This document shows positions 20,445 to 47,685 of a stretch of 64,000 nt of DNA, in pieces. Position 1 is the stretch's first letter; each line of letters begins with the position of its first letter. The stretch spans positions 10,992,001 to 11,056,000 of the forward strand of contig NC_057916.1 of NCBI RefSeq assembly GCF_018873765.1, written 5' to 3'. The position numbers and the translations under genes are program-made. This stretch comes from Telopea speciosissima (taxonomy: Eukaryota; Streptophyta; Magnoliopsida; Proteales; Proteaceae). The notes under the pieces were generated by a model. That model worked only from the letters and a program-made list of their open reading frames with translations. It made no database searches and was not told where the DNA came from.

Positions 20445-20645
20445 AATGTTAAGCCATGGACTTTTTTATATAAAATAATAAAATTAAAAAAACAATACAA
20501 ATCTTTGAATGATTACATACCCTAGAAAAATATAAGGAAAAAGATTTTTTTGGGTAAATATATAAAGGAAAATGAGTAATACTTACAAGGTGGCCATTAC
20601 AAACTAGGACCCTAGATTTGACACTTGACCAACTCATCACATTTT
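20445..20645 (+). repeat. Dispersed direct repeat R1, left member
   Basis: About 200 bp ending tttgacacttgaccaactca. A diverged copy lies in the same orientation at 21160-21345 and ends tttgacatttgaccaactca. It is probably an old transposon pair or a tandem duplication separated by an insertion. Confidence 0.65.
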
Positions 20646-20882
20646 AAGTTCCCAAGTCCAGAAGCAAGCATAAATTCCTCACCCAGCCCACACGCAAGAA
20701 CTGGTGTTGACTGTAGAAGAAGACTAACATTACCTCTCATCCCATACGCATGAACCTTTGAAGAGGATTGATATTTCTGGCTTTGTGTTATACCAAGAAG
20801 TTATGGAGGCGGGATCCCATTCTCGTACGAGAACTTACAAGAATGCCTCACAGGTGTACAAATGGAATCTACTTCATGTGAA

Positions 20883-26600: not shown

Positions 26601-29100
26601 TTGCTAATCTAGCAGGATAGGTTTCTTGACAGCATTATTTAATGTTGTGATCTATCTGAATTAAAGCTTTTCCCTTTCAGTTTGAGAGTTCATGAATATT
26701 CAATTTTTTTGTTCTTTTTGGGTGGCAGACTTCAGTTAATGTGCTACAAGTATTTGTGGGATAATATAGTTGCTGATAGCTTCCCTTCAGACCATTTCTT
26801 TGATTTCTTTGGATTGAATCCTCTTCACGTTTTGTCCGAAGATATCATAGAGCACGCTGCTAGCTCAGGTTTCCCTGTGAAGGTAAATGACTTTGCTCCT
26901 TGACTGTAGTAATCCATTGATCTATGTTTCTTGTGACACCTTAATACCTTTTCTCATCTATAATTAACCGTTTACTCCATGTATTTTCCCTATTGGCCAA
27001 TCCATCTCCCCCGTTGTGTTAGTTGGTGAACCCCTTGGAAGGGATATGACTGACATAGTGACATATGAATGGACACCATAATTTCATGATATTTGAACTT
27101 CTTTACTGCCAACTTCCTTCAAGAATAGTTCTTACCTATATTTTAGCTGTGGATCAGAAGTTTAAGATATTCAGTTCTATTTGGTCAAATTCTGAGGTTA
27201 TTCTCCATTTGAATGATGTCCATTGGCTGGATGGTCCTCAGCAACGACTTAGTAGTCATCTCCATGATAAAAGCGGCATTTGAAGATGATAGTGATGATG
27301 TATTCATTCTCCAGTATAATTTTGTTAAGTTTATCCCAAGTTACTGAGCAGCTTCTTTCTCCAGTATATTTTTCCTTATTTCTGCTGCTTCAGTTTGAGA
27401 GGTGCTCAACCTAAACAAAACTTGGTTTTAACCTATAGTGGGATTACTCCAACTTAACCTGGAAAATCTTCTCCTGTTGCTTTCTACTTCCTCTTCTTGA
27501 AGGCTCATTCTTTTGGGTCGGGCAAGGTTGAAGCATATCCGAAACTCAACATGGATTTAACTGGGCATGGGTTGGCCAACCTGAAACTTGGAGAACCAAT
27601 TAGATTGTCAGTACAGTTCATGAATTATCACCCTAGTCCATATGTAACCCTTCAATCTTCTAAGGGATTACAGTATCTTCATGAGCCCTTAATTGTTCCC
27701 CTTATTACTCTGTCTTTTTCATATCTTAGCATAGATCTCCTGTTGACATCAAACTTGATGGTTCGAATGTTTCATTTTGTGTGTGGTCAGCTATGTTCCT
27801 GAATCAATGTGCTATAATGTCATGTGTTAAAGGCTTGAGGAGCGAAACAAGATATGTCTAATGGGATATGTATGCGATCTGGAGAGCCTTTTGTTAATGT
27901 GGAAAAATGTCCTGTGAGAGAAAGTTGAGAACACTGTGTCAAAATGAAGACATTCTTGACATAAGATTAAAGAAACATTTGGATAGAATAAAATAATCAA
28001 GTCTTTAGTGAGTTGTTTGTATCAAAAGATAGGCATTCTGGCTATGGTACACCCAAGAGCTTTCCTACTTATTAAATGTAATGGATCAATACAGAAACAA
28101 AAATTTTGGACATGTAGGGTAAAATCCTCTCATAGACATTATTGCTTTCCGGTTTATGATGATATTCTGAGTTTGCTTCATTTACATGTGCAGACCCTTG
28201 AAGATCTAGTTACGTGCTTTAGAAATGCGTGTTGCTTGATGCCTTCTGCACACGACCAGCTTCTGTTGAGGTGATTAGAAATCTAAACTTAAAACTTTAG
28301 ACTATGTTATTAGTTGGACCTCTTCTAGCTGCAAACTAGTCCATGGAAGATGAAAATATTCCTATTTAAGGATAGGAAAGGTTTTAGCTATGTTCCATCT
28401 TGAGAAACATTTTATAGAGAGCAGCAATGTTGCGTATGACAGCTGGAGAAGTCACTTCTCTTGTTCCTTCAAAGAATTAGTATTCCAGTAACCATTGTCC
28501 ATGGGGAAAAATATAGTACAAAACATAGTATGGGGCTTATGTGGTCATGGATATTTTCTACATGGCCACCTCAGGCAGTTGCTTATGAGATGGCTGGATG
28601 TGTGGGTATTCATTGGCTGCTGCACCATCTTTCCATTTGGCTGAAAAAGTAGTTTTGTCCCGAGAAGGCTTCTATGCTTTTAATATTCAGTAAGGGTAAT
28701 TAATTTAGATGATTTGAACTGCCCAATCTATCTCATTCTTTTGAATGCTTGGCCAAAAATTTGTATGGTTATGAAAAGCCTATTGGGTATTTTGTACGAG
28801 GCTTTACTGGTCAGAGTCCTCTTCTATTTTCTAAGATCATCTCTCCACATATTTGGGGTCACCTTTCTGCTTCTTGTTTGCTGCAGATATGAACTCCAAG
28901 AAGATCATTCATTGCTAGGTGAAGATAAGTTTGCTTATGATTCTGATTGGCTTAAAAGTCAGATCCAGTGCTGTCTTGAGTTCTGGATGGGAAACCGAGA
29001 AGCCAGATATGTCCCAACAGAGGAGCGCTGGAAGTGTCGGTATTGCAAGTTTGCTTCTGTTTGTCCAACAAATGCAAGCACCAATAGTATGCCAAGCTAG
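23672..29100 (+). CDS. EXO5: Exonuclease V (EXO5/DEM1 family), 7 coding exons
   Basis: Single-stranded DNA exonuclease of the PD-(D/E)XK/Cas4-like fold with a 4Fe-4S cluster, acting in DNA repair in nucleus or organelles. Predicted exons: 23672-24043, 24654-24758, 25806-25927, 26414-26563, 26729-26882, 28194-28270, 28887-29100. All have GT/AG borders and matching phases and give 397 residues, near the usual plant length. Visible features: a first cluster cysteine in ITDLTASEWCEKQ (Cys127), the nuclease core [16 protein letters not shown] (Asp214) and LVDTKTR (Asp231, Lys233), the [13 protein letters not shown] helix, and the last three cluster cysteines in [13 protein letters not shown] (377, 380, 386). 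All catalytic and cluster residues are present, so it looks functional. The start is the first Met of a frame beginning MTDSPIKSP and continuing [16 protein letters not shown], which fits the family N-terminus. No transit peptide is obvious. Intron 5 is about 1.3 kb and contains an open stretch (27503-27660) that might be an alternative exon but is not needed for the family alignment. Confidence 0.93.
25131..25360 (+). repeat. 114-bp tandem repeat in EXO5 intron 2
   Basis: gcattcttacaaatactac and its flanks, through ttcatgaaaaaaaa, occur twice with a 114-bp period (25141 and 25255). It is intronic and non-coding. Confidence 0.85.
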
Positions 29101-29453
29101 AATTTAGCAGCGATGTTATACTCCTATCCTAATTCAATCAGCCTACAAGAAGTTGTTGCTGTATGTAGCCACTTTTTGCAGAAGTGACAGAGAGTACGGA
29201 ACCACCCAAGTTCCCACTGTATTTCACTTGGATTGGCAGACCATTACGTGGGGCACCCCAAGAAATAACAGGATCCTGTACAACTTATTTGTGTGTAGCC
29301 ATATGCATATAGCATGCCATTGTTGTTGGCAGACCTTCCATGCTCTGTTTAATAATTCTTCTTTTTCTTTTTCTTTGTTTCGGTACCCATTTATAGATTC
29401 ATTCATTGTTGTAAAATGGATACTTAATTAACTGTACATTTATTTTTCATTCC

Positions 29454-29459
29454 AATAAA
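29454..29459 (+). terminator. Candidate EXO5 poly(A) signal
   Basis: AATAAA about 355 bp after the EXO5 stop, in a T-rich context. The distance is reasonable for a plant 3' UTR. Plant signals are loose, so confidence is moderate. Confidence 0.4.
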
Positions 29460-31171
29460 TATAAATTTCTGCTGCTCCTTCAAGGAGTTTCCTCTATACT
29501 TTGCGCATGTATGATGTTACATAGCTGGACAGTAGATGTAAACTGAGCAGTTGTCCTACAGAATGCTCTCATGACTGTGATTAGGGGCAGTCCAACCGCG
29601 AGGGCATTCCTATGGTTTCATTAGTTGTTAAGTGTTGATCAGATGATCAGGATGCACCACTCAATGTAACCCACTGCATAAACCGAATAGATCTGTGGCC
29701 ATTGGCATGATGAGATGGATGACATTCAAGGGGAGTTCTCCACTGCCTTGAGTCTCTTGGCTTTCTATGTTGAAAATTTTTGGACATTGCTCATCATTCA
29801 TAAAGAAGATTCACATATCATGAAACCATAGACTTTACCTTCAGACTCCAAAAATTGTCAAGGAACACAGTAGGGGGGGGAGTGAAATGTCTTAGTTCAT
29901 CTGGGGAAAAAAAACTGAATCTTCCTTTTTCAAAGCTACTTTAGATTGGGTGAAACTGAACCATCCTGCCAAACATCAGGATAGGCACCCAGTGTCAGGA
30001 CAAGCGGATCAACCTGAATTGAGGTCAAGGTTTTAAGTATCTGGATCGGATTAGACAGATTAGGTGTCTTGATCAGGATCAGGTGGCAGTGCTACACTGA
30101 TATTTTGTCAAATAATAGTCAATATTGGGTTGGATCATCTGATCAGGATCAACATTGGTAGTTTCCAATCCAGTCTACTATACCAGTTTGTAGAACCTTG
30201 GTGGAGGTGATTTAGGTAGAGATGGCCGGAGAGCAAAATGACAGAGTATGCAAACACATGCTGATCTTACAAGGTTATGCATGCGCGAGTCCAGAAACTC
30301 TGCACTCGTATTTCCTTTTTTGATGGTTAATCACTCTGCAACAAACTCATTTACCTTTTGATGGATTATTTTGGTAGAGACCCAGAAATCTGTGATCAGG
30401 TTTGTAATTTTCTTGCAGTGTGAGTACTGGGAAAATCTAAATATAAGTTCCATTTCTGTTGATGATTGTATTCTTAAATGTTTTTTTTTTAATTGGTTAC
30501 AAGTTTTGAAATTTCTTTTTTTAATTTTTTAGAGTCAAATAGTTATAGTCTCATATCGGTTTATTCACGTTTTTTGTGCCTTCATATACTTGAGGAGCTA
30601 TCTCCATTTAATGCCTTAAGGTGTTGGTTAAACCCTCCAACATGCTGAGATGACTTATCGATTTCAACAAATGATGGGAAGTTAATTACAATTTCTAGGT
30701 TGGCATGCTTGTACAAAAATCAAAATCACTTCTAATTCCAAAGCATTGCTTCTTTCTCTTCTCTCTTCTTTCATCCCCTTGTCTGTGAGAAAATCTGCTG
30801 CTGGTTCTATTTGGCCTTCATCAATGTGTGAACATAGCTGGAGAAGAGAACTGATTACAATAAGTTCCTACTTACCTACTTCATCTTGCTTCCATTGTTG
30901 TGAAGTTACAGTGTTCATTTCTGTTATTTCCATAAATTATCTTAACCCAAAGGACTTGGCACCTATATTTTCAAGTGTGGATAAATGTTAAAAACAAACA
31001 CCAAAGAAACACGAAGAAACAAAACAGCATAAGCAGGTTTTGTGCACAATCCACAACCATGCACAAAATCTTTTGCCAAAAAATTATTATCAAAAAAATA
31101 AGAGAGCATTCGGTGGGTCAAAGAACCTTCTCCATCCCTCTCCCCCTTCCCCCCTAATTTTTATCCTCTTC
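29460..31171 (+). other. Intergenic region after EXO5
   Basis: No gene recognised. About 30010-30190 is rich in ggatc/gatcagg words (for example gtatctggatcggatta and gatcaggatcagg), which resemble the more regular GATCGG-type repeat at 31445-31690. The rest is ordinary AT-rich spacer. Confidence 0.5.
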
Positions 31172-31325
31172 TGTTCGCTACCCGAACAAGACCGTCCTGT
31201 CTCTTCATATGGGGTGCGAAATGATGACTTAACCTCCCTCGGCCAGTGTGTTCGGGCAGGGGGTTAGGTTGTCATTTCGCACCCCCATGTGAGGGGACAG
31301 GACAATCCTGGTCGGGCAGCGAACA
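31172..31325. mobile_element. Palindromic miniature element (foldback)
   Basis: Arms of about 66 bp. The left starts tgttcgctacccgaacaaga, includes cctgtc, and ends ggtgcgaaatgatgact. The right includes gtcatttcgcaccccc and ggacaggac and ends gggcagcgaaca. The hairpin is nearly complete apart from a short centre. It has no coding capacity. It shares the gggcag-end style of family M but not its interior, so it may be a separate subfamily. It lies about 620 bp upstream of the predicted TIM14 start. Confidence 0.75.
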
Positions 31326-31444
31326 AGAAATGATAACGATTCCCCTCCCCCCCCCCCCCCCCCCCACCCCCAAAAAAAAGAGAGGGTATAATAGTAAATT
31401 CAGCAAACACCACCTGGTCGGCACAATAGCATCCATTCCCCAGG

Positions 31445-31690
31445 GTTTTAAAAAACGGAATCGGATATGAATCGGTCAGGGCCGGTTCTAATCCAGATTG
31501 ATTGGAATCGCATGGAACCGGCCGATTCTAAGCTATTTGGAGGTGAAAATGTTATCGGCTCAAGAATCGATTCGATTGAACTGGCCGATCTGATTTCAAA
31601 TTTTCAATGCAACCATTAACAATTAGGATCGGTGTCAGCCGATTCGATACTCTGATCCGATACCCGATTCCCGATTCATTAAGGCATGCC
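31445..31690 (+). repeat. GATCGG/CCGATTC-rich repeat tract
   Basis: A degenerate tract with many copies of words such as gaatcgg, ccgattc and tcgattcgatt in both orientations. Similar words recur at 46430-46930 and, as TATCG variants, within the insertion at 37405-38714. No gene content. It probably belongs to a degenerate transposon class with internal palindromes. Confidence 0.6.
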
Positions 31691-31779
31691 CCAACACGGC
31701 TACACCCCTCTTCCCCCCCCCCCCCCTTCAAATAAAAAATAAAAAAAACGCATGAGAAAAACTTAGAAGAACTTCTGGG

Positions 31780-31949
31780 GAAGTCCATTTGCAGCTTCGG
31801 TGAACCTCTGAAAACCCTAAGAATGGGTTCTTGTTTTCTAAATCAGGCGTTAAGACGGAGCAACAACTTCACAGCTTAAAAGAAAAGACCAAATAATTTA
31901 TTTACAAACCGATGTTCTTTTCTTCAACCCTGAACCTCTCGCGGATATG
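31780..31949 (+). promoter_or_regulatory. Presumed TIM14 5' UTR and first exon
   Basis: About 170 bp of less AT-rich, UTR-like sequence (cttcggtgaacctctgaaaa to ctctcgcggatatg) ending in ATG and a strong donor. Only position and splice logic support it; the transcription start cannot be seen. Confidence 0.5.
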
Positions 31950-34900
31950 GTGAGTTGAGACCCTCTTTGTTCCATTTTCTGTTTTCCAATGTGAAATTCT
32001 ATTTCTTCTTTTTTTCCCCCGTTTTCAAACACCCATTTTGCTGCTTTGAGTCATTAGGTTTTTATTGATATTTGTTAAAAGACAAGGCAGTTGTAAGAGA
32101 ATGGAAACATCTCCATGGCGATTTGGTGTTCGATTATTGAGTGCTCCTTCTTTACTGTTTCCCCCCCCCCCCCCCCCCCGTTGTTCTCTTGTTGATCATC
32201 AATTAAAGAAATTATATTGGCTACTAATGAGCTAGATTGAATTAAATTCTTCCAGTGAGTTGCTTCAAATCTAAATTTGTTTAACATCCATCAACCATGA
32301 GATCTGTTGTCTCTGAGTTTGTGGGTTTTTTGCAGAGCCTTTCACATCATTTTCGATGGAGTTATCTAGAGCCTTTCACAGGCTTAATACATCTCCTTCG
32401 GTCCTGCACAAGTTCGCACAGTAGTGAAAGACTTTTTTTTTTTTTTTTGTTTTATTCGGCTAGCATGTTTGAAATTTTGGACAGAGATCACCAAATCTTA
32501 TCCATCTAGGAGACAACCAAAACCACTATTAGATTCATTGGGTGGAAGTTTGACTCTAATTACATTGTTAAGGTGATGTCTTGAAAATTTCTTTGTACTG
32601 ACCTTTGTGTGTTCTTTTGTGGCTTGATGATAAAATAATTGATATTGGTCCTGAGATTCAAACAGAAGCATCTCGGATTGGAATATTGCTGGAAATTAAA
32701 GCCCATTAGGAACCAACTGTAGGCTTCAGATTTAGGCTAGGATTTTATTTTAGTGGAGAGGGTGACATCTAAATGTCCATTGCAAAAGATGTAAAGTCTG
32801 TTCTTTATTCGATTGGATTAGGTTTAACAGTTGCGTGCTGGGCATGGCGATGGGCTATGCTTTTAGGAGAATAAAGTTCAAAGTGGTCAAATCTTACTTG
32901 AAAGCTTTAGGACATCTTGATCTTTGGTAGAGAGTGGATCTGGTATATTTATATCAAATCTTTTCTTTGCTGCCTCATGTGGCCCTATTAACAGTTGGGT
33001 GCATAGTCTCTTAGAAAAGAGTCCCAGTGCCCCTAAAATGGAAGGATCTTTGCTGGGAAATTGCTCACTGAAAGGTTAATATATGTTATGCGCTACCAAG
33101 GAGGCTCTACGATAGCATCATCTGTCTCATGTTTGCTACATATGCAATGTGGGCAAGGAATAAGTTGGCCGTTGGTTCTAAACTTCTAATTGTCCATTCG
33201 CCTTTAAGATCTGGTTCCATTTCCTCCCCCCCCCCCCCCCCCCCCGGCGTTAGGAGGTTTCACCCATGTCATTGTTGCTCTGATGGGGATTTGTGAGGGG
33301 TGAGCCTCTTCACACGATTGTCCTTTATACTGATATTGTGACCCTTTACAAGGAGAGTATTTATTAATTGTTTCTTGGCAGTTTCATCTCTGTTGAAATG
33401 ATTATCATAATAATTTCTTCTCATGTGGCACATGGGCATTCTCTTGTCATTTATCTTATCTGGAGTGATTCTTCCCTCGCCCCTACCAAACTCCTGTCTC
33501 TTCCCATTCTAATGTCTAGGAATATACAGTTGGAGATCCCCACCTTTAGTTGTGAAGCTTTACTTTTATGGTTAAACCCTTACCAATCTCTGGCCTTCTA
33601 GGTTTGATGGTTTGTGATTTTACTAGCTCTTGGATTATATCCCTATCATTTGCTCTTCCAATGATAAAGGTTTGAGTCACATAAGCATTGTGGAGACTCA
33701 TAATTTTATTGCCTGGACGCAAAGGGAGGTTCAATACTTCTGCTTAACTAGGTACATACATGATCAGTGACTGCTTATTAGCATCTTGTTCCACTCAAAC
33801 ATTGGATCTGCGAAGAATATTGCTGAATATTTTGTTAAGTGTTTTCGGTTGTCTACCATTATTTCTTTTTTACATTTTTTTATGGCCAAAGGTTATGTGC
33901 ACAGCCGTGCATGTGCACAGTCGAACACATAACTGTGCAATAGAGACTAACGTGGGTCAAAATTACCAAAACCTCCCTCCCCCCCCCCCCCCCCCATTTG
34001 AAGAATTGTGTATGGGTGGGGTGTTGTGCATGAATCCCCTAATGAAAGAAAGAAGGATCTACACACTGCAGCTAATATTTTTATCTTACTCGCCAAGTCA
34101 ATAGTTGATAGCCAAACGGTATATTTAATAAGGAGAGAAAAGGGGGACCCACATATTTAATGAGAGAGGGAAGAGAGGAGAGTAAACACTGACAGCGTGT
34201 ACTTCCTTTTCCCAATAAATAAAAAAAGAAGGTTACAAAGTGACCCTCCACAGTGCTTGGGAGTCCTACTACTTGAGACCTCTCCTCCTCTTCCTCTTAA
34301 ATTCATTAATTCATGAAATAAATAAATAAAGAAGGTTTACAAAGCGATCCTCCACCAGTACTTAGAATCCTACTACTTGAGACCTCTAAACTCCTTAAAC
34401 AAGATGGACCATTCAATGAAATAGCAGCATGCATCAAAACAAATTTCAGGAGTTGGCCTCTCATCACTCTGGAAACTTCCTTCCAATGCCTCAGCAATTG
34501 GAGTACTTTGAGTCCAACCATGTATCGAGTATAAATAGTGTTAGAGATATAGGCCAGAATACCGTAGGGGTATTCTGGTCCTTTCCTCCTTTTTATTTTT
34601 CTTCTTATGTTATTTATTCTCTTTCCTTTGTTTATACTTATGTCAGCTATATAGGGGCATAAGTGTCTATGTAATTCTCTTTTATTAGTATAAATACAGG
34701 GCTTAGGGAATCATATTGATTCACTTAAGCATTAAACCATTCTATTTCTCAACTTTGCATTAGAGCAACGACACTTCTGATTTTTTTTCTCTTCAAAACC
34801 CCTCCCTCCCATCGTGTTCTCTTCCCTTTCCCTTCTCTCTCGATTTTTTTTCTCCCCCTTCTCCTTGCTTCTTCTCCTTCTCTAAGGGCAGCACTGCAGA

Positions 34901-37900
34901 GGTGATCACATGATCCAGCTGCTGCCCCTTCCCACCTCTTTTATTCCTTTTTTTTCATGACCTAAACCTTTTCTCTCGATGGCTGCTGGTTCCATATTGC
35001 GCTAATTAGAGTTTCCTGTTTTTTTTTGGGAAGATCAGTCCTCGACTGATTAGGACTGCTTCTCCTTCTATTGGAGACCCTCTTGCGACATTGGACTGCT
35101 ACTATCGAGATTACAACAGAAACTGAAGACCATCTCCCCCAATCGAGACCTACTTTCAGTATATTGGACAGCGTGGATAAGCCTTCTTCAACAATTTTTT
35201 TGTGGGATTTCCCTGCCCCATCGATCTCTGTTTTTGGGTTTTCTTCCATAACACTCACACACTCGATATTGGGGAGGGCTCCTATTTTGCTGTTGGACAG
35301 ATCTTCTCTTCACTATGGGTGACTCCACTGATATTTCGACTGCTACATCTGATCAGGTTAGCCATGACAAATCTGATTTCCATGATCTCCACCCTAACCC
35401 TATCAAGTTAGACGGCAACAATTATCTTCTATGGTCTCGATCAGCCTCTTTTGCTATTGCTGGACGTGGCCTCACTGGTTATATTGATGGGACTATCCCT
35501 ATGCCGACTGCCCCTGGTATTGCCAAGACTCGATGGTTAGCCAACAATGGTCTTCTTATGTCATATTTTGTTGGTTCTATGAATTCAAATCTAGCCCAGG
35601 GATATCTTCTACTTGATACCGCTTCTCAGATTTGGGCAGCATGTAAAGAGACATATGGGCAGCTTGGTAATGATGCTCAGGTGTATGAGCTTCGCAAAAA
35701 GGTCCTTCATACTACTCAAGGGGACTTCACGGTGTCTAAATATTATGCCACTCTCTGCAGCCTCTGGCAGCAATTGGACCATTTTTTAGATTATCACCCT
35801 GATACAGCTACCAACATCGTTGCCTATAAGAAGCATGTTGACAGGATTAGGGTGTATGACTTTTTGGCCGGGTTGAATGTTGAATATGACCAGATTCGTG
35901 TTCAAGTGTTGGGCCATTTTCCTTTTCCCATACTTGAACAATCCTATGCTCTGGTCTCTTCAGAAGAAAACCGCAGGGCTGCTATGTTACATCCTCCTGT
36001 TTCGGACAGATTGGCTCTCCAGACTGTTGCCCAGGCTACTGCTGCCCCTATTGGGACTTTATCTGTTGGTAGTTCTCCGTCAGGTCCTATTACCTGTGAC
36101 CACTGTCATAAGTCTTATCATACCAAGGACAGGTGTTGGAAGCTTCATGGGAAACCGACTGACTTTGAAGCCAAGCGGGTTGCCAAGAAAAAGCCTAAAA
36201 GCAAGGCACATCAATCTAAATCTGTTGATACAGCCCCGGCTACAGACATTGGTCTATCTCAGGACGATTTACAGGCTTTCCTGCGTATGCTATGGTCTTC
36301 CCGCTGCTGCTGCCTCTACTACTTCCGCTGCCACTTGCCAATTCCTTAGCTCCTTCAGGTTCATATTTTGCCCGGTCAGGTATCCCTTTTGGTGGTCATT
36401 GTGCTTCTGTAGCTTCACATCCCTGGATCATTGATTCCGGGGTTATAGATCACATGACTGGTACTTCTAGCTTATTTTATAGATATTCTCCCGCTTCTGG
36501 GAAAGACAAGGTCAAGGTGGCTGATGGTTCCCTTTTTTCCATCTTTGGAAAAGGAATCATCAACTGTACTTCCAACCTCCCTTTGTCTTCTGTTTTACAT
36601 ATACCTAATTTTACTACTAACCTCCTTTCCATTAGTAGTATTACTCGTGATCTTAACTGCAAGGTAACCTTTTATCCTTCCCATTGTGTTTTTCAGGATC
36701 TGGCGTCGGGGAAGACGATTGGATTGGGTAAAGTTCACGATGGGCTGTATCTGCTTGATGATGGTTATCTTCCTTCACCGCTGCCTTCTCCACTCCATCA
36801 GAATTCCTTGGTCTCTTCTGAACTTTACCAATGGCACTCTAGATTAGGTCACCCTCCATTAGGAATTTTAGCGCATTTATTTCCATCTTTGGTCACCAAA
36901 TGTAATAAGGATAATTTTTTTTGTGAGGCTTGTGTTCTAGCCAAACAGACACGTGCAACTTTTTCTTTATCTAATAAAAGGAGTTCTTCTTGTTTTCATT
37001 TGGTGCATTTGGATGTTTGGGGACCTAGTCGTAAGACCTCTATCTCTGGCCATCGTTGGTTTGTCTCATTTATTGATTGTCATTCTCGAAATACTTGGAT
37101 TTATCTTCTTCAGTCTAAAAACCAAGTTTTTTCTTGTTTTCAACATTTTCATAAAATGATCCAGACCCAATTCCAGGCCACTCTTAAGGTTTTACGGAGT
37201 AATAATGGCACTGAATATAAGGAATCCCAATTTCAAAAGTACCTTGCTGATCATGGGATTATACATTAGACTAGTTGTGTTGATACTCTGGCCCAAAACG
37301 GTGTGGCCGAAAGAAAGAATCGCCACTTATTGGAAGTGGTAAGAGCATTAATGTTTGCTCGACATGTTCCATCCAAGTATTGGGGTGATGCGGTTCTCAC
37401 TGCCAAAGATTTAAGTATCGGTATTGGGTATCGTATCGGTCAGGTGATTTTAAGAGACGTATCGTATCGAAGATATGTATCGATAAGTGCAGAAATGCAT
37501 GAAAATGATCAAAATACACTTTTGGACACAAAAAACAATATAAACAAGCAATTTGTGTCATATATCATGCATATATACTAAGAATTGTGAATAATCAATA
37601 ACCAGACAAGTGCGGCACTTTGAAATTGTTATAAAAGATTAAAAGATGAAATTCCTTACATGTAGAGTCACTCTATTGCCATGAAGAATGTCGGAGTGGA
37701 TCAAAGTCATGTCTGTAAGGGTCTTCAACAATAGGAGCGACTAGGATGATGTTGTGTACTGTCCGAACATAAGCACAATACTGAGCCCAGTCAAAATACT
37801 GATGGTAGTGACTCTCCCACTCATGGTATATAGATTTTAGGGTAAATGTATAATCTTCTTGGGATGTCATACATCTATACATAATGTACTCCATATATTA

Positions 37901-40900
37901 TAAACATTACCATTTGTTTTAAAGTTAAGAAGGAAAAAAAAAAATCATTTTAAAGAAGGAATTTTTGGTTTTGGGTAAAAATGGCCAAAGAAACATGGAT
38001 TTGAAACTAAATCTTTGTAAATGCATACAAAGAATGCAATTTTTATGTTAGTTTAACATATTCTCTTTGCTTCATACCAAAAAACATACCAAAAATCAAA
38101 GATTAAAGCAAAAGATTCAAGTTTTTTTCAAAAAACTTACCTAACCCTTCAAGAACAGCTTTTGAATTCGAATGTGGGCTGTTAGATCCACCAAATGATG
38201 TGATTTCAGCTCCTCAAAGTTCGTTTTTGGCAAAGAATTGAAAGCTCTCAAGAAATCTTACCCAAAAAGCAAGTTTAAATGTGTTTTTGGAAGGGATTCT
38301 CAAAGCAGGGAAGAGCTTTTTTCCGCCAGGGCTGCTAGAAATCGAGTTTCAGGTGACAAGAATGAAATGGCCATATGTTTTTTAAGTTAACGATACGTAT
38401 CGAGACGTATCGAGTTGTCTCGATATGTATCGCTATGTATCGGTCAATATATATCGATACATATCGAGACGACTCGATACGTCTTGATACGTATCGTTTT
38501 TAAAAATATAATAAAATAAAATTTTTTATAACTCTCCTCTGTATTGATACGTATCAATCGTATCGTATCATATCGTCTCGGTCGATACGTCTCGATACAG
38601 TCGAGAAATTAACTTAAAAAAAAGATACGTCTCGACCTGTATCGTATTGACCTCAACCGATACCGAGACGTATCGGCTGAGACGATACGATACGCTTCGA
38701 GACTTAATTCCTTGCTCACTGCCGCTTACCTTATTAATAGGTTACCTTCCCGGGTTCTGGATTCCCATAGCCCATTTGACGTTTTACTTGGTGATTCCTC
38801 CTTTGTGGTACCTCCCAAAGTCTTTGGCTGTATCTGTTATGCTAGGGATACTCATTCCCTTGGCAAACTTGAACCTCGTGGGTTACAGTGTATTTTTTTG
38901 GGTTATTCTCCAACCCATAAAGGATACAAGTGTTACCACCCTCCTACCCGCCGTACTATAGTCAGTATGGATGTGGTTTTCCATGAAACCCTTTCATATT
39001 ATTCCTCCCCACCTCTTCAGGGGGAGCGTTCTAGTGAAGATGTGGTTCATACTCTTGGGTTTCCCCTCCCCCCATCACCTATAGCCACCGACCAACACTC
39101 CCCGGCTGCTGTCCAGCCTCCCGAGGCTGCTGTCCCTTCACTTGAGGGGAATCCAATACAGGGGGAGATCATGAAAACAGATGGTGGTAATGTTCCTATT
39201 CAGGGGGAGCTGACTTCAGTACAGAGGACCATTCGTAACTTTCAGAAGACCATTGACAATTCCCCCATTCTCACTTACAACCGGAGATGTTCTAACAGAG
39301 AGCAGAATTAGACCACTGCAGCACCGATACCCATCCAGTTGCCGCCTCAGGATCCAGATCCTCCTTCTCCTGGTGAGCCTTCCTCTTCTGATCTACCCAT
39401 TGCTCATCGCAAAGGTTTCAGGACCTGCACTTTACATCCTATTTCCCGTTTTGTGTCTTATAGTTCTCTTTCTCCCTCTTTTCGTACATTTGTTACCTCC
39501 CTTTCTTCTGTTTCCATTCCTAAAAATTGGCAGGAAGCATCTACAGATGGAAAGTGGAAGGCAGCAATGTTGGAAGAAATGAGAGCATTGAACAAAAACA
39601 ATACGTGGGATCTTGTAGTTCTTCCTCCAGGAAAAAGACCAGTGGGTTGTAAATGGGTGTTTGTGGTCAAGCAGAAGGCAGATGGTACAGTGGATCGGTA
39701 CAAGGCACGTCTGGTTGCTAAAGGCTTCACTCAGACTTATGGCATTGACTACCAGGAGACTTTCGCACCGGTAGCAAAACTCAATACTGTACTAGTATTG
39801 CTATCCTGTGCAGTGAATCTTGGATGGGATCTTCAGCATTTGGATGTGAAGAATGCCTTCCTCCATGGTGAACTAAAGGAAGAAGTGTATATGGGCATTC
39901 CTTCAAGTTTTTCAAGTCCCGCTACCAAGGGTAAGGTGTGTCAACTGAAGCGTGCACTCTATGGCTTGAAACAATCACCTAGAGCTTGGTTCGATAGATT
40001 TCACAAGGCTATGTTGTCCGTGGGCTACCAGCAAAGCAATGTTGATCATACCTTGTTCATCAAACGTGTGGGTGCTAAGGTTACTCTCCTCATAGTCTAC
40101 GTTGATGATATTGTAGTGACCGGTAATGATGCTGATGAGATCAACAGGTTGAAGTTATTCCTTGGCCATGAGTTTGAAATTAAGGATCTCGGGACTCTGA
40201 AATATTTTCTCGGGATAGAGGTTGCTCGTTCTTCAAAGGGTATATTTCTGTCTCAAAGAAAGTATGTCCTGGATCTACTATCTGAAGCAGGGTTGCTAGG
40301 GTGTCATCCTTCGGCAATTCCCATAGAAGCTACGACAAGACTCAAGGAGAAAGAAGGCTCACCTGTTGACAAAGGTCGTTATCAGTGGTTGGTGGGCAAA
40401 CTTATCTACCTATCTCACACTCGGCCAGACATTGCCATTGCAGTGAGTATGGTCAGCCAGTTTATGCATGACCCTTATTCTTCTTATATGGAGGTCGTCC
40501 TTCGCATCTTACGATACTTGAAGTCTGCTCCAGGACAAGGGATACTCTTATCTCCCAATGGTCATCTGAAGGTTGAAGCATACACTGATGCGGATTGGGT
40601 TGGTTCCAGTGATAGGAAGTCCATCTCTGGATATTGCTCTTTTGTTGGTGGGAACCTTGTCACCTGGCGTAGCAAAAAACAGAATGTGGTGGCCAGGTCC
40701 AGTGCTGAGGCTGAATTTCGTGCGATGGCTCATGGTATCTGTGAATTGTTGTGGCTTAAGGGGTTGTTGCAAGATATTGGAGTTGCTGTCCAACTTCCAA
40801 TGATGTTATATTGTGACAATAAGGCTGCCATAAGCATCGCTCATAATCCTGTCCAACATGACCGTACTAAGCATGTGGAGGTGGACAGACATTTCATCAA

Positions 40901-43900
40901 GGAGAAACTTGAAGCTGGACTCATCTGTGTTCCCTATGTGAAGTCTGCTGATCAGCTGGCTGATGTGTTCACAAAGGGGCTGACTGGCAAAGTGTTTCAT
41001 CCTTTTCTAGCCAAGTTGGGCATGTGTGACATTTTTGCACCAACTTGAGGAGTGTTAGAGATATAGGCCAGAATACCGTAGGGGTATTCTGGTCCTTTCC
41101 TTTTTATTTTTCTTCTTATGTTATTTATTCTCTTTTCTTTGTTTATACTTATGTCAGCTATATATGGGCATAAGTGTCTATGTAATTCTCTTTTATTAGT
41201 ATAAATACAGGGCTTAGGGAATCATATTGATTCACTTAAGCATTAAACCATTCTATTTCTCAACAAATAGATTAGATGTAGGTTACAAGTACAAAAAAAG
41301 AGAGAACTTTTCAGGTTCAACAAGAACTGAAATGAGGATTGGTTGATGATCTTCAGGCATCTCATGTCAGTGCTTGAGTTTCTAAAAGTGATTGGTTTGA
41401 CTGTAACTAGCCACCTTTATTGGAAAGAGCTGAGCTGAACCTAGATCTTACTAGAGGGAATGGGAAACTCAGTTATTTGATGACTACTTATTCATGGTTT
41501 TATCAGAAATATCACATTTATCTTTCTTAACAGCTCTGGTCAAGGAAACAGAACTGTTGATGAATAATGTTTTCAATATCACTTCCAGAACTCATCTACT
41601 TGTACTTTAATGTTGATAGCACAAGCATTTATATCAGAAATTCAAAATAATGAACATTGTATCTCTCGTGTGTATCAGACTTCACCGTTTCTAGCTGGAC
41701 TTGCTGTAGCAGCTGCTGCTCTTGCTGGAAGATATGGGATCCAAGCTTGGCAATCATTTAAGACTCGTCCAGCTACACCTATCATCCGAAAGTTCTATGA
41801 AGGTGGTTTCCAACCTACAATGACAAAAAGGGAAGCAGCTCTTATTCTTGGCATTAGGTAAGGGTGGCATCTTATGAAAAGGGATTTAACTTCTAGGATC
41901 TTTTTGCCTTGTATTGATGCTTATAGAATTTTATGTAGGGTCGTGGGGGAGATCTGCAATAAGTGAGGAATCCCACTCTCTGGAAATAGTGATGATGATG
42001 AAACATGATAACAGAAAATTATCCCCCTCAAGAAAATCCAGGAATTTTATTTCCTCACTGACTCTCTGTGATCAATACTGCATGATTGTCTAGTGATAAT
42101 AGAACTCTCATCCCAAATTATGACAAACCAAAGGAAATCCCAAATGTACGGAAATCATAGCTGCAAGATTTTCAGTGTGGCTCTCTGCTGGATTTTTTCA
42201 CCACTTCTTCCATAGGTTTATGGGGTTAAGGGCTTAATTGGCTTCTTTGGAGTCATTAGCTTGTAGGCCTTCTTTTGTGGACACTTTGTTATGTCTTGCT
42301 ACTTCTGAAAGTTCTGTCAGTCACATACTTCTTTTTCTCGGCTGCTGGTACTGTATTACTGGTGTCTAGGTCCAGCAATTGAGCTGCTAGCTAATAATAG
42401 GAAGAATCTGCCAGACAAGACGCTTTGCCGCTTAAAAACCAGTCATCTTTTTGTCCTAGCTCAACTCAGCTTTATCCCCACCATTTGGACAATGTTGGGC
42501 CAGTTCTTCTGCTAACTCACAAATACTTGTCCTGGCTTACCAATTCAATCCATTCAACTTCCCTCCTGTTGTTTTACTATTTCTAATATGCATCATATCA
42601 CTCCTCACCTGTGCTAGCTACCGTCTTCAGTTATGTTATTCTTCCTTAAGGGTCAAAATTATATTTACTTCTGTAATAGCTTTTTTTTTTTTTTTCAAAA
42701 AAAAGTAAAGCAGTGGCTTTGTGAAATCAGCTTTCAGAAGGAAGAATTATTAAAATATTTATTTCTCCACTTGTCAGACCTTTCTATTGGTTGCCAAACT
42801 AGCCTGTGTGTGCAAAGAGAGAGCAGTAATGTGGGGAGCTGGCACCTGTGCAATAGGATAAAGACATCAAGCTTTAAGCTTCAGCCTTCAAATATTGCAA
42901 ATCTATGTTTCATTCAATAAATCTCTAATTCTCACAAGCCTGATCTCTTCCCCCACTTGCACCCCAGAACCTAAAATTTTAAAATGAATCTTTCAAAAAT
43001 AAAGCCTCAAGTTGAAATTTCCCTTGACATTGGTTTAGTTAATCACCTAAACCTGAGGGTGATAAACATGTCCAATTCTTACTGCTGAAAAAATTGCCAA
43101 CTTTTTAGTATCAATCCTGAAAGGACTTGAGTTTTCCTTCACCCATGGTAAAGAGAAAATAATGGGGCTAAACTTACTAAAACAGTAAGTAGTTAAACCC
43201 ACCCACAAGGTAGAACCGTAGGGTATAGAATAAGACCAGAATATACAAGTAACAGTAACTAACAAACCATAAATCTGATGGTCTTGAGACTAGGGTTGAA
43301 CAAAACCCTAGTATAGGTGAACAAGCCCTCAAAAGATGGCTGTGATCCAACGGTCAGATTAGGACATATAGGTGGGTTACTGAAATTAGTAAGTAGCCTC
43401 ACAAATTAGCAACTTACCAATAACTAGCAAACTAACCAGCTGATGTCACTCAATCCTTGGTCGAAGGTAGGGTACTAACAATGGAGCAATGCTTCAAACC
43501 CTATAAATAATTGATGGTCGGATGTGAAGATAACACCAAGTTCTGAATTTAGAAACTGGGACAGGATTAAACTCTTACAGACTTGAATGAGATCCAACCA
43601 CTGGATGTGGCTGAAAATGAGATCGAAAGGAGGTCCCAGAGGTAGGAGTACACGCTCAAAATAAGGGTTGGATCTGTTAGCCAGAATAGGAGTTGTTGAG
43701 GTCTGAAATTTTGCTGTAATAGACTCCACATGCAAGTGCTGCAGGTCAGGTTTGATGCCACAGTATCTTCTTGGTGCTGGCTTGATGAGAACTGAAATCA
43801 CACTTCAACTTATAAACAACAAAGGCACCAAGCCAAAGCAATCTTCATTCATAAAATCGTGGGGGGTTAGGTTCTAAGGCCCTTACAATATATAGAGGGT

Positions 43901-44920
43901 ATTAGTGCCTCTAGAAAAGGTAAACAACAAAATAGGTAGTGTCTAAGAACAGTCTTACACATGTAGTAGGGCTGCCTCGTACAGTAAAGAAACTAGAAAA
44001 TAGTAACTAATAGGATCCATATATGCAGTAAGATAGGTTTCCTATTTACAGCAACCACCTTAGAAATAGAGTGTTACTAATCTAAAGATGCTAGAAATAA
44101 AATTAGAAACAATATACCCACGCAAGGACTAGATACCATGTAGTAATGTGCCCCAAACTTGGCCCATGAATTGGACCAAACCCAGCCGCCATGAAGGCTG
44201 GCTGGCCATCTTCATCTTCTCTTCCTCCTCCAATCTACATCAGAGAATCTCTTAATCCATGGGTTCTGATGGTTGGAAGTGGCTCCTGGAATAGTGCCAA
44301 GGGCATTCAAACTTCACATAGTTGGGGAGCGAGAGGGGATAATGACACTCCAATGGCTACATTCTCTTCTACCGCTATGTAGAAATTTTTTTGCCATAAA
44401 ACTTATTCTTCGGTGTTCCCTGAAAGTTACACTGTATAGTTGGAAGTTGGAACAAGGCTTGTTGAGTTGGCGGGGCGTAATTGTACTCTGCACTGTGCTA
44501 GAGGTCACCCTTTAAACCATTCTTTATTGTAAAAAAATAAAAAATCTCACTATGTATATGAAAATAGATATTTTTTCTTAGCCAAACAATAATAATTTTT
44601 CTGGTCAAATTTGCCATAGAGATCCATCTGTTCATTTTCACTAGATTGAACTTATTAACTTTATGTCAGATTAATATTTATTGTTCCAATCCAGAAGAAA
44701 AAATTTTATGTACCTTATTTAGCTATTTCCACTCTCTTAATCAGAATGTTTTTTATTTAACAGGGAACATGCAACTCCAGACAAGGTTAAGGAAGCTCAC
44801 AAAAAGGTGATGGTTGCAAACCACCCAGATGCAGGTGGCAGCCATTACCTTGCTTCCAAAATTAATGAAGCAAAAGACATAATGCTTGGAAAGACAAAGG
44901 GAAGTGGATCGGCCTTCTGA
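31947..44920 (+). CDS. TIM14: TIM14/PAM18, J-domain subunit of the mitochondrial import motor
   Basis: Inner-membrane J-protein that stimulates mtHsp70 to pull preproteins through TIM23. Predicted coding pieces: ATG at 31947-31949, 41679-41857 and 44764-44920, total 112 residues, the usual plant TIM14 length. Exon 2 starts after tatcag and reads [20 protein letters not shown] (single membrane anchor, about residues 4-20), then [20 protein letters not shown]. Exon 3 gives the J-domain core with HPD at residues 81-83 ([12 protein letters not shown]) and ends KGSGSAF. Exons 2 and 3 are certain by family. The first exon is inferred: the family begins M-(A/T)-(T/S)-P-F, exon 2 supplies the residues after Met, and the ATG at 31947 is followed at once by a GTGAGTTG donor in phase 0, with a UTR-like sequence upstream. 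The alternative start at 41610 would add 23 residues unlike the family. Intron 1 (9729 bp) contains a whole copia element; intron 2 is 2.9 kb. Confidence 0.85.
34228..34388 (+). repeat. 103-bp tandem repeat in TIM14 intron 1
   Basis: gaaggttacaaagtgacc through tactacttgagacctct occurs at 34228 and again at 34331 with a few changes. Confidence 0.8.
34534..34538 (+). repeat. Copia target-site duplication, left (aatag)
   Basis: AATAG directly before the 5' LTR, repeated directly after the 3' LTR at 41266-41270. A 5-bp duplication is standard for Ty1/copia integration. Confidence 0.85.
34539..34754 (+). repeat. Copia 5' LTR
   Basis: Begins TGTTAGAGATATAGGCC and ends TTTCTCAACt; the last base differs from the TG...CA rule, which the 3' LTR keeps. 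It contains a TATA box and a pyrimidine-rich middle. Confidence 0.93.
34689..34696 (+). promoter_or_regulatory. TATA box in copia 5' LTR
   Basis: TATAAATA followed about 20 bp on by gcttagggaatc; a typical LTR promoter. The 3' LTR has the same box at 41200-41207, which could fire towards TIM14 exon 2. Confidence 0.6.
34755..34767 (+). other. Copia primer-binding site, degenerate
   Basis: TTGCATTAGAGC lies directly after the 5' LTR. It resembles the usual initiator-Met tRNA site TGGTATCAGAGC at 8 of 12 positions. The leader from here to 35314 is non-coding and T/C-rich. Confidence 0.55.
35315..36349 (+). pseudogene. Copia gag
   Basis: A 344-codon frame starting MGDSTDIS. It contains the copia capsid signature ([28 protein letters not shown]) and a CCHC zinc knuckle ([14 protein letters not shown]). 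The C-terminal end is shifted out of frame at about 36290, since the protease continues in another frame. Gag itself is open and may still be translatable, but the gag-pol join is broken. Confidence 0.88.
36350..37404 (+). pseudogene. Copia protease and integrase, 5' half
   Basis: Contains the aspartic protease site ([13 protein letters not shown]), the pre-integrase zinc region ([17 protein letters not shown]) and the integrase core (HLDVWGP). The second catalytic block reads RSNNGTEY, where the family normally has an Asp, so integrase is inactive. A TAG lies at 37267-37269. The ENG-type Glu block ([11 protein letters not shown]) follows. The frame is cut at 37404 by the nested insertion. 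Confidence 0.9.
37396..37404 (+). repeat. 9-bp target duplication of nested insertion, left
   Basis: CTCACTGCC, repeated exactly at 38715-38723. Removing one copy plus the insertion puts the integrase reading frame back in register across the junction, which confirms the borders. Confidence 0.92.
37405..38714. mobile_element. Non-autonomous Mutator-like element nested in copia
   Basis: A 1310-bp insertion with a perfect 9-bp target duplication, the size typical of Mutator-like elements. Terminal inverted repeats are imperfect (left aaagatttaagtatcgg; right reads caaggaattaagtctcg from the other strand). Both ends, especially 38380-38700, are packed with short palindromic words of the tacgtatcga/gtctcgata type. 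The centre (about 37480-38380) is AT-rich and encodes nothing I recognise; the longest minus frame (37673-37894) has no domain. There is no transposase, so it would depend on an autonomous partner. Confidence 0.85.
38715..41048 (+). pseudogene. Copia integrase C-terminus, reverse transcriptase and RNase H
   Basis: Resumes with [11 protein letters not shown] and continues in one frame except for a TAG at 39309-39311. The RT shows [36 protein letters not shown] and the catalytic YVDDIVV. RNase H shows [26 protein letters not shown] and [11 protein letters not shown], and the C-terminal [12 protein letters not shown] is intact. This part is well preserved (569 codons open from 39339), much better than the upstream integrase. 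Confidence 0.93.
41053..41265 (+). repeat. Copia 3' LTR
   Basis: 213 bp, TGTTAGAG...TCTCAACA, followed by AATAG. It lacks 3 bp (ctc) present in the 5' LTR and differs from it at two internal sites. Confidence 0.95.
42630..44560 (+). other. TIM14 intron 2, repeat-like content
   Basis: Non-coding. About 43040-44180 has the look of a degraded retroelement (short stop-rich frames on the minus strand, words such as gggctgcctcgtacag), but I cannot define ends or a family. No exon is needed here for TIM14. Confidence 0.35.
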
Positions 44921-45359
44921 TACCATTGAGTTCCAATACCTCTCCAGCCTTGTTTGTCAAATCTTGGAAGTTGAGCTAGAAGAGTGAAACACTGTCTATC
45001 AAAATGGAAGAGGGAGTAGTTTTTTCTGTTACTTTATAATACATGTTCAATCTAATTCTTGGGCGTTTGTATTAGTCATGCGATTATTGAAGCAAGAGAT
45101 TTTCCAATTCTTTTATGACCAAAAAGGTTTATATATAAATTTTTCCATGTATTAGATATGAAGAAATCATTTAAGATAGGACCATGGATTTATTATTATT
45201 ATTTAGAGCAATGGAGTAAGCCCACTGAGCATCCATTTTTCTTGAGCTTTGTAACTTTTTTTGTTTGGTTCCAGAAATGAAAGTATCATTGGCTTGGGAA
45301 GCCTAAGACTGAATTTAGCAGATTGTAATGGGCGTATCCAGTATTTGCTGCCTTTGCTT

Positions 45360-45436
45360 CTTTTGATGTTTCAACACATTCCTACAGATCAGTGCACTTT
45401 TTGATGTTTCAACATATTCCTACAGATCAGTGCACT
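45360..45436 (+). repeat. 38-bp tandem duplication
   Basis: ttttgatgtttcaacacatt through gatcagtgcac occurs twice in a row with one change. Confidence 0.85.
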
Positions 45437-47181: not shown

Positions 47182-47685
47182 ATGGGTACTGGACAAACCT
47201 CACCAGCTCTTCCTTCCTGTAATTGCAGATGGAGAAACTATGGTCGCCAAGGCATTCGATACCGGTTGATCATTATTCATTCTATTTTGATGACATTTGG
47301 GGGAATCCTTCTCTTCCGTCTGGGTACAGCCAACACACAAAATGGGCCTGAAGTAGAGATCTTTGCCGTTGCAGGGGCAGTGTTAGCTACTCTTCCTTGG
47401 ATTCTTCAACTTTTGGTCTCTGCAACAGTAATTTTATCTTACAATATGGGGCTCTGTGATCTCACATGGCTCGTCACCCTTGATAAAGGGCCACATAACC
47501 ACTCTTGCTCAGGAGCTATTGCTCAAGATACGGCTGTTTCAAGCGAAGAAGATGGAGAGAAGGATAGTGTGTGTCGGGTTCATGAGGAGAGCGAGCAGGG
47601 GTTCCAAATGGCTTTTGTTAGGCCACAATCAGTTGCAGAACATCATGAAGGTGCTCTTCAGTTGCAAGGCACTGGAATTGTCTAA
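47182..47685 (+). CDS. Unrecognised protein with two hydrophobic segments
   Basis: A 167-codon frame starting at an ATG. It has a hydrophobic stretch at about residues 27-46 (IHSILMTFGGILLFRLG) and another at about 61-90 (VAGAVLATLPWILQLLVSAT), then a polar, acidic C-terminus (SSEEDGEKDSVC). I do not recognise the family. The membrane-like segments and the length suggest a real or recently broken coding sequence, possibly a single exon of a membrane protein, but a chance frame cannot be excluded. It lies 786 bp beyond the 3' end of the hydrolase and points towards it (convergent). Confidence 0.35.
   Translation: MGTGQTSPALPSCNCRWRNYGRQGIRYRLIIIHSILMTFGGILLFRLGTANTQNGPEVEIFAVAGAVLATLPWILQLLVSATVILSYNMGLCDLTWLVTLDKGPHNHSCSGAIAQDTAVSSEEDGEKDSVCRVHEESEQGFQMAFVRPQSVAEHHEGALQLQGTGIV

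Follow-up and report, generated by a model that had tools for sequence, protein, structure and literature searches.

A predicted start codon intron in a TIM14 gene of Telopea speciosissima, lengthened by a young copia element

Introns that directly follow the initiation codon form a published class, the start codon introns (Nielsen and Wernersson 2006, PMC1626468); plant proteins encoded with such an intron are reported to have a mean length of 152.9 amino acids (aa) as against 211.2 aa for those without. Retrotransposons in introns are likewise known. About 3% of Arabidopsis transposable elements lie in gene bodies, and the heterochromatic marks on the intronic ones are reported to be required for proper transcription (PMC4417168). 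In grapevine, recent insertions of long terminal repeat (LTR) retrotransposons have enlarged introns (PMC3058033). In the Arabidopsis gene RPP7, which carries COPIA-R7 in intron 1, it was shown experimentally that premature polyadenylation at the 5' LTR is suppressed by EDM2/H3K9me2 (PMC7529245). Here we describe a TIM14 (Pam18) gene of Telopea speciosissima (Proteaceae), located in a window of 64,000 nucleotides (nt) from the assembly GCF_018873765.1 (NC_057916.1, 10,992,001 to 11,056,000, forward strand), in which the start codon very probably forms the whole coding part of exon 1 and is separated from the rest of the gene by an intron containing a copia element. All positions given below are window positions unless otherwise indicated.

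The first intron of this gene resembles the start codon introns of PMC1626468, a class that includes flowering plants, in its phase 0 position between codons 1 and 2 and in the short conserved protein encoded; it also begins with GT, ends with AG and is longer than 73 nt, the further features by which such introns are recognized. The first three of the six parts of that paper do not discuss transposable elements, whereas the window intron owes its 9.7 kb to copia. As in RPP7, a copia element occupies the first intron and transcription must pass through it before the coding sequence is reached; RPP7, however, is an immune receptor gene investigated by experiment, whereas TIM14 serves a housekeeping function, has two more copies in this genome and is seen here in its anatomy alone. 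The likeness to grapevine lies in the enlargement of introns by recent LTR retrotransposons, but that study is a genome survey whose abstract singles out no start codon intron. As start codon introns are already known and so are copia elements within first introns, we regard their combination as neat rather than surprising. No published start-codon exon of TIM14, Pam18 or DNAJC19 was found in the literature searched, which did not extend to the list of start-codon-intron proteins in Supplementary Table S2 of PMC1626468, and the words 'exon' and 'intron' are absent from the main text of PMC3806816, a source on plant Pam18 proteins. One combined literature search gave no report of a retrotransposon inserted between a first and a second codon, which is weak evidence of novelty.

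As the initial annotation had claimed, exon 2 begins at 41679, right after the position of Met, behind a clean acceptor (AG at 41677-41678); its donor GT starts at 41858. Exons 2 and 3 together encode 111 residues, and one Met supplied by the gene model brings the product to 112 aa, which is the length of each of the three Arabidopsis Pam18 proteins At2g35795, At3g09700 and At5g03030 (PMC9695410). Given this agreement, the simplest reading is that the one residue lacking ahead of exon 2 is the initiator Met; exon 1 would then have to end in ATG. Residues 40-101 match the J domain of yeast TIM14 (PDB 2guz) with an E value of 9.8e-18 and with the HPD motif aligned; the Pfam matches to DnaJ (23.0 bits, cut-off 27.8) and Pam16 (24.2 bits, cut-off 30.3) are both under threshold. 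A short N-terminal membrane segment was judged by eye to be present in the 112-aa product; of the 31 rows for plant Pam18 in PMC3806816 (Table 1), 19 have a TMpred segment that begins at residue 1. Together with the comparison of paralogues described below, we concluded that the window gene is very probably an ordinary nuclear TIM14/Pam18 gene of three exons, with its start codon alone on exon 1.

The Telopea assembly itself (822.9 Mb in 1,287 contigs) was searched with exon 2, and all 3 first-look candidates were scored. The three matches represent three TIM14 genes, namely the window gene and two paralogues, here called C2 (86% identity; L004 coordinates) and C9 (70%). All three have the same three-exon structure with identical phases and an exon 2 of 179 nt, and each encodes 112 aa when Met is supplied. 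Against the whole window, 10 of 11 BLAST rows of C2 are collinear, running from 31751 to 45396, and one row (20634-20723) is stray. The collinear blocks that fall between L004 7364 and 9418 correspond to 31751-31962, 32188-32363, 32387-32449, 32695-32795, 41460-41699 and 41610-41857; the first of these (76% over 213 nt, E 1e-33) covers the junction ATG/GTGAGTT, where the slash marks the exon border. In C2, the homologous ATG/GTGAGTT and the homologous acceptor of exon 2 are 1,682 nt apart, which is the length of its intron 1. Another ATG/GT site of C2, at L004 3530, scores equally but is outside the aligned gene. In C9, 25 in-frame codons precede exon 2 and none of them is ATG. Thus, the start codon that the initial annotation had placed alone at 31947-31949 is backed by both paralogues, and the start codon model is secure because the C2 alignment spans the leader, the ATG/GTGAGTT junction, the intron blocks and the acceptor. 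Since the C2 junction is homologous, the intron after the start codon would be older than the duplication that separated the window gene from C2, and the splice junction before codon 2 appears to be old within this TIM14 family. A 158-nt tandem duplication (89%) was observed in C2, at L004 8951-9108 and 9104-9261; it has produced a second copy of the acceptor and of the initial bases of exon 2, and with it a decoy acceptor.

The initial annotation had argued from the ATG and its donor alone, and this argument appears to have been right but insufficient without the paralogues, which supplied the missing support. The sequence ATGGTGAGT at 31947-31955 is the sole ATGGTRAGT in the window on both strands, with 1.20 expected by chance per 64 kb. 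Between the 3' part of an EXO5 gene and exon 2 (29101-41678), its donor ranks first among 20 ATG/GT sites, as scored with an approximate matrix; neither ATGGCRAG, an ATG followed by a GC donor, nor ATGGTATCCT occurs in this region. Several points weigh against the start codon model. The argument from the window sequence alone is weak because dinucleotide shuffles of 29101-41678 yielded an equally good or better ATG/donor in 66 of 200 cases, so that the match is non-significant by itself; smaller regions gave 24 of 200 (29101-34538) and 25 of 200 (29101-34538 plus 41265-41678). The start of C9 is a prediction from donor score: the best-scoring of its listed sites, ATG/GTAAGG, lies 1,453 nt upstream of exon 2. 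In the window gene, a reading frame is open from an ATG at 41610 into exon 2. Finally, the window and C2 exons (100 of 112 residues identical) differ with a nonsynonymous divergence (Ka) of 0.050 and a synonymous divergence (Ks) of 0.132, so that constraint is visible but not strong; against C9, synonymous sites are saturated.

The alternative that survives best, though we consider it improbable, is that the insertion silenced the window copy, which would then be a pseudogene in the making while the two other TIM14 genes carry the function. These two genes are indeed intact, and as the element is young, intact exons in the window copy say little. On the other hand, this copy shows no damage to its exons, splice sites or reading frame, and plant introns of this size that bear long retrotransposons are reported to undergo transcription and splicing in Arabidopsis and grape (PMC4417168, PMC3058033).

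It is very unlikely that the main form of the protein starts instead at the ATG at 41610, on an unspliced RNA from a promoter near exon 2 such as the 3' LTR (with TATAAATA at 41200), and so carries 23 additional N-terminal residues. Such an ATG at position -23 is also present in both copies of the C2 tandem duplication, the first of which is preceded by 46 open codons in this frame; but in the copy adjoining the real exon 2, a stop 6 codons ahead of the exon closes the frame, and the corresponding frame of C9 has no ATG. Of the 69 sites in the segment 41610-41678, 18 or 20 are changed relative to C2, compared with 17 of 177 sites for exon 2 (Fisher p 0.002 and 0.0003), and the changes in the segment are spread 7/5/6 across codon positions, like those of the intron blocks on its flanks (70-77% identity). 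The ratio of nonsynonymous to synonymous proportions (pN/pS) is 12.5/55.7 over 5.5/13.3 for the extension and 9.5/131.8 over 7.5/45.2 for exon 2, small counts which give no clear separation. Moreover, the interval 41235-41610 contains nine ATGs, and the three 112-aa Arabidopsis proteins leave no room for extra residues. The ATG at 41610 is disfavoured as the main start; it may serve a minor LTR-driven form. Least likely of all is another first exon, either an unseen upstream ATG/donor or a coding exon 1 of greater length. In 29101-41600, 14 phase 0 open initial exons have a donor score of at least 6.5, and four of them (30361-30399 and three within the copia element) outscore 31947. These four, however, are outside the C2-aligned blocks, in one of which 31947 lies, and each would add 13-31 residues absent from the 112-aa plant proteins.

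The copia element in intron 1 (6.7 kb) lies on the strand of the gene. The initial annotation had called it a full copia element, which holds for its structure, with both LTRs present and AATAG as a target duplication of 5 nt, but not for its coding part, where stops, a frame change and a nested insert of 1,311 nt interrupt the gag-pol frame. The integrase (rve) precedes the reverse transcriptase on one strand, which is the copia order. The nested insert carries many GATACGTATCG-like internal repeats and is probably a DNA transposon. The two LTRs (34539-34753 and 41053-41264 or 41265) align at 212 of 217 positions with two substitutions and one 3-nt indel; provided that CA is the end of the element, the last base is T in the 5' LTR and A in the 3' LTR. 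Their divergence K of about 0.0095 corresponds to roughly 0.4-0.7 million years at substitution rates of 1.3e-8 and 7e-9. With K about 0.0095 against Ks 0.13, the element inserted long after the window/C2 duplication. The element had also been credited with poly(A) signals of its own; neither LTR contains AATAAA, and the two copies present are inside the element at 36973 and 38510. Both LTRs contain TATAAATA. The seed TGGTATCAG, used to look for an initiator-Met tRNA primer site after the 5' LTR, is absent from the window. The LTR family is multi-copy, with at least 40 matches of 93-100% in the assembly (40 of 362 candidates scored). When matches on one contig and strand no more than 10 kb apart were paired, 11 of the 14 other LTR pairs among these 40 matches were spaced by 5,274-5,557 nt, as against 6,514 nt here.

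These data suggest that the start codon intron was inherited, being present before the window and C2 copies separated, and that a sense-oriented copia later inserted into the window copy. The length of 9.7 kb claimed for the intron agrees with our measurement; subtraction of the element and one target duplication leaves about 2,997 nt, so that the insertion would have stretched an intron of about 3.0 kb and appears to have lengthened a pre-existing intron rather than created one. The first introns of C2 and C9 (about 1,450 nt, predicted, in the latter) are too short to hold a 6.7-kb copia. Production of TIM14 from the window copy would require transcription through the element and splicing of 31949 to 41679, and an RNA that was unspliced or ended early would give just Met-Val-Ser from the ATG at 31947. 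The dependence of the protein on splicing across the element, as had been proposed, thus fits the gene structure of the window copy but need not extend to the TIM14 of the cell, which has three TIM14 genes. By analogy, the element might be tolerated through intronic heterochromatin of the Arabidopsis kind, read by EDM2/IBM2-type factors, and through redundancy with the two other genes. A doubtful extension of this scheme is that copia acts as a switch, in which RNAs ended in the 5' LTR would carry the leader and Met-Val-Ser, heterochromatin masking would set the TIM14 output, and the 3' LTR would drive an N-extended second isoform from the ATG at 41610.

With a start codon intron shared by three paralogues of one genome and about tripled in one of them by a young LTR element, this locus would be a clean natural case. 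C2 serves as a built-in control for the window copy, so that the effect on output of a retrotransposon between start codon and protein can be asked. Automated gene prediction may overlook an exon of one codon at a distance of 9.7 kb, so that the window copy is annotated as N-truncated or given a start at 41610. The locations of the features are summarized in Table 1.

Table 1. Features of the TIM14 gene and its intronic element in the window
Feature	Position	Strand	Details and evidence
5' leader/promoter stretch kept in C2	31751-31946	+	BLAST, 31751-31962 against L004 7364-7570
Start codon, predicted entire coding part of exon 1	31947-31949	+	ATG/GTGAGTT aligned to C2 (L004 7555); top score among upstream ATG/GT sites
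Intron 1, phase 0	31950-41678	+	9,729 nt, right after the predicted start codon; sequence and C2 alignment
Target-site duplication, 5' copy	34534-34538	+	AATAG
5' LTR	34539-34753	+	215 nt through CAAC; TATAAATA at 34689
Copia internal region, in pieces	35252-41048	+	Frames broken; open reading frames (ORFs), Pfam
gag	35252-36349	+	Pfam, ORFs
Pol_BBD/gag-pre-integrase/integrase	36229-37269	+	Pfam, ORFs
Nested insert, probable DNA transposon	37404-38714	.	8-nt duplication CTCACTGC; imperfect terminal inverted repeats
SH3-like	38613-39311	+	Pfam, ORFs
RVT_2	39312-41048	+	Pfam, ORFs
3' LTR	41053-41265	+	TATAAATA
Target-site duplication, 3' copy	41266-41270	+	AATAG
In-frame open stretch with ATG, adjoining exon 2	41610-41678	+	23 codons
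TIM14 exon 2	41679-41857	+	Codons 2-61, last codon split after two bases
TIM14 exon 3	44764-44920	+	HPD motif and stop

Upstream of TIM14 and on the same strand lies the C-terminal part of EXO5 (exonuclease V; 28684-29100, Pfam Exo5), and downstream, also on the same strand, a 167-codon frame is open from an ATG (47182-47685). In the 17 kb compared around C2 or C9, there was no match to either the EXO5 piece or the protein of this frame. A scan for bacterial-type promoters and terminators was uninformative for plant DNA. The telo-box AAACCCTAA at 31812 was considered as promoter evidence and rejected, as its position is not conserved in C2, although the window contains 5 copies against 1.23 expected. 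In the old part of intron 1, short pieces at 32921-33190 resemble a decayed non-LTR element by eye. The leader contains upstream ATGs at 31823 and 31912, positions common to C2 (L004 7437 and 7520). In the spliced window RNA, the frame from 31912 would end at a junction-made UGA overlapping the TIM14 AUG (AUGA), whereas the C2 version continues for 22 residues.

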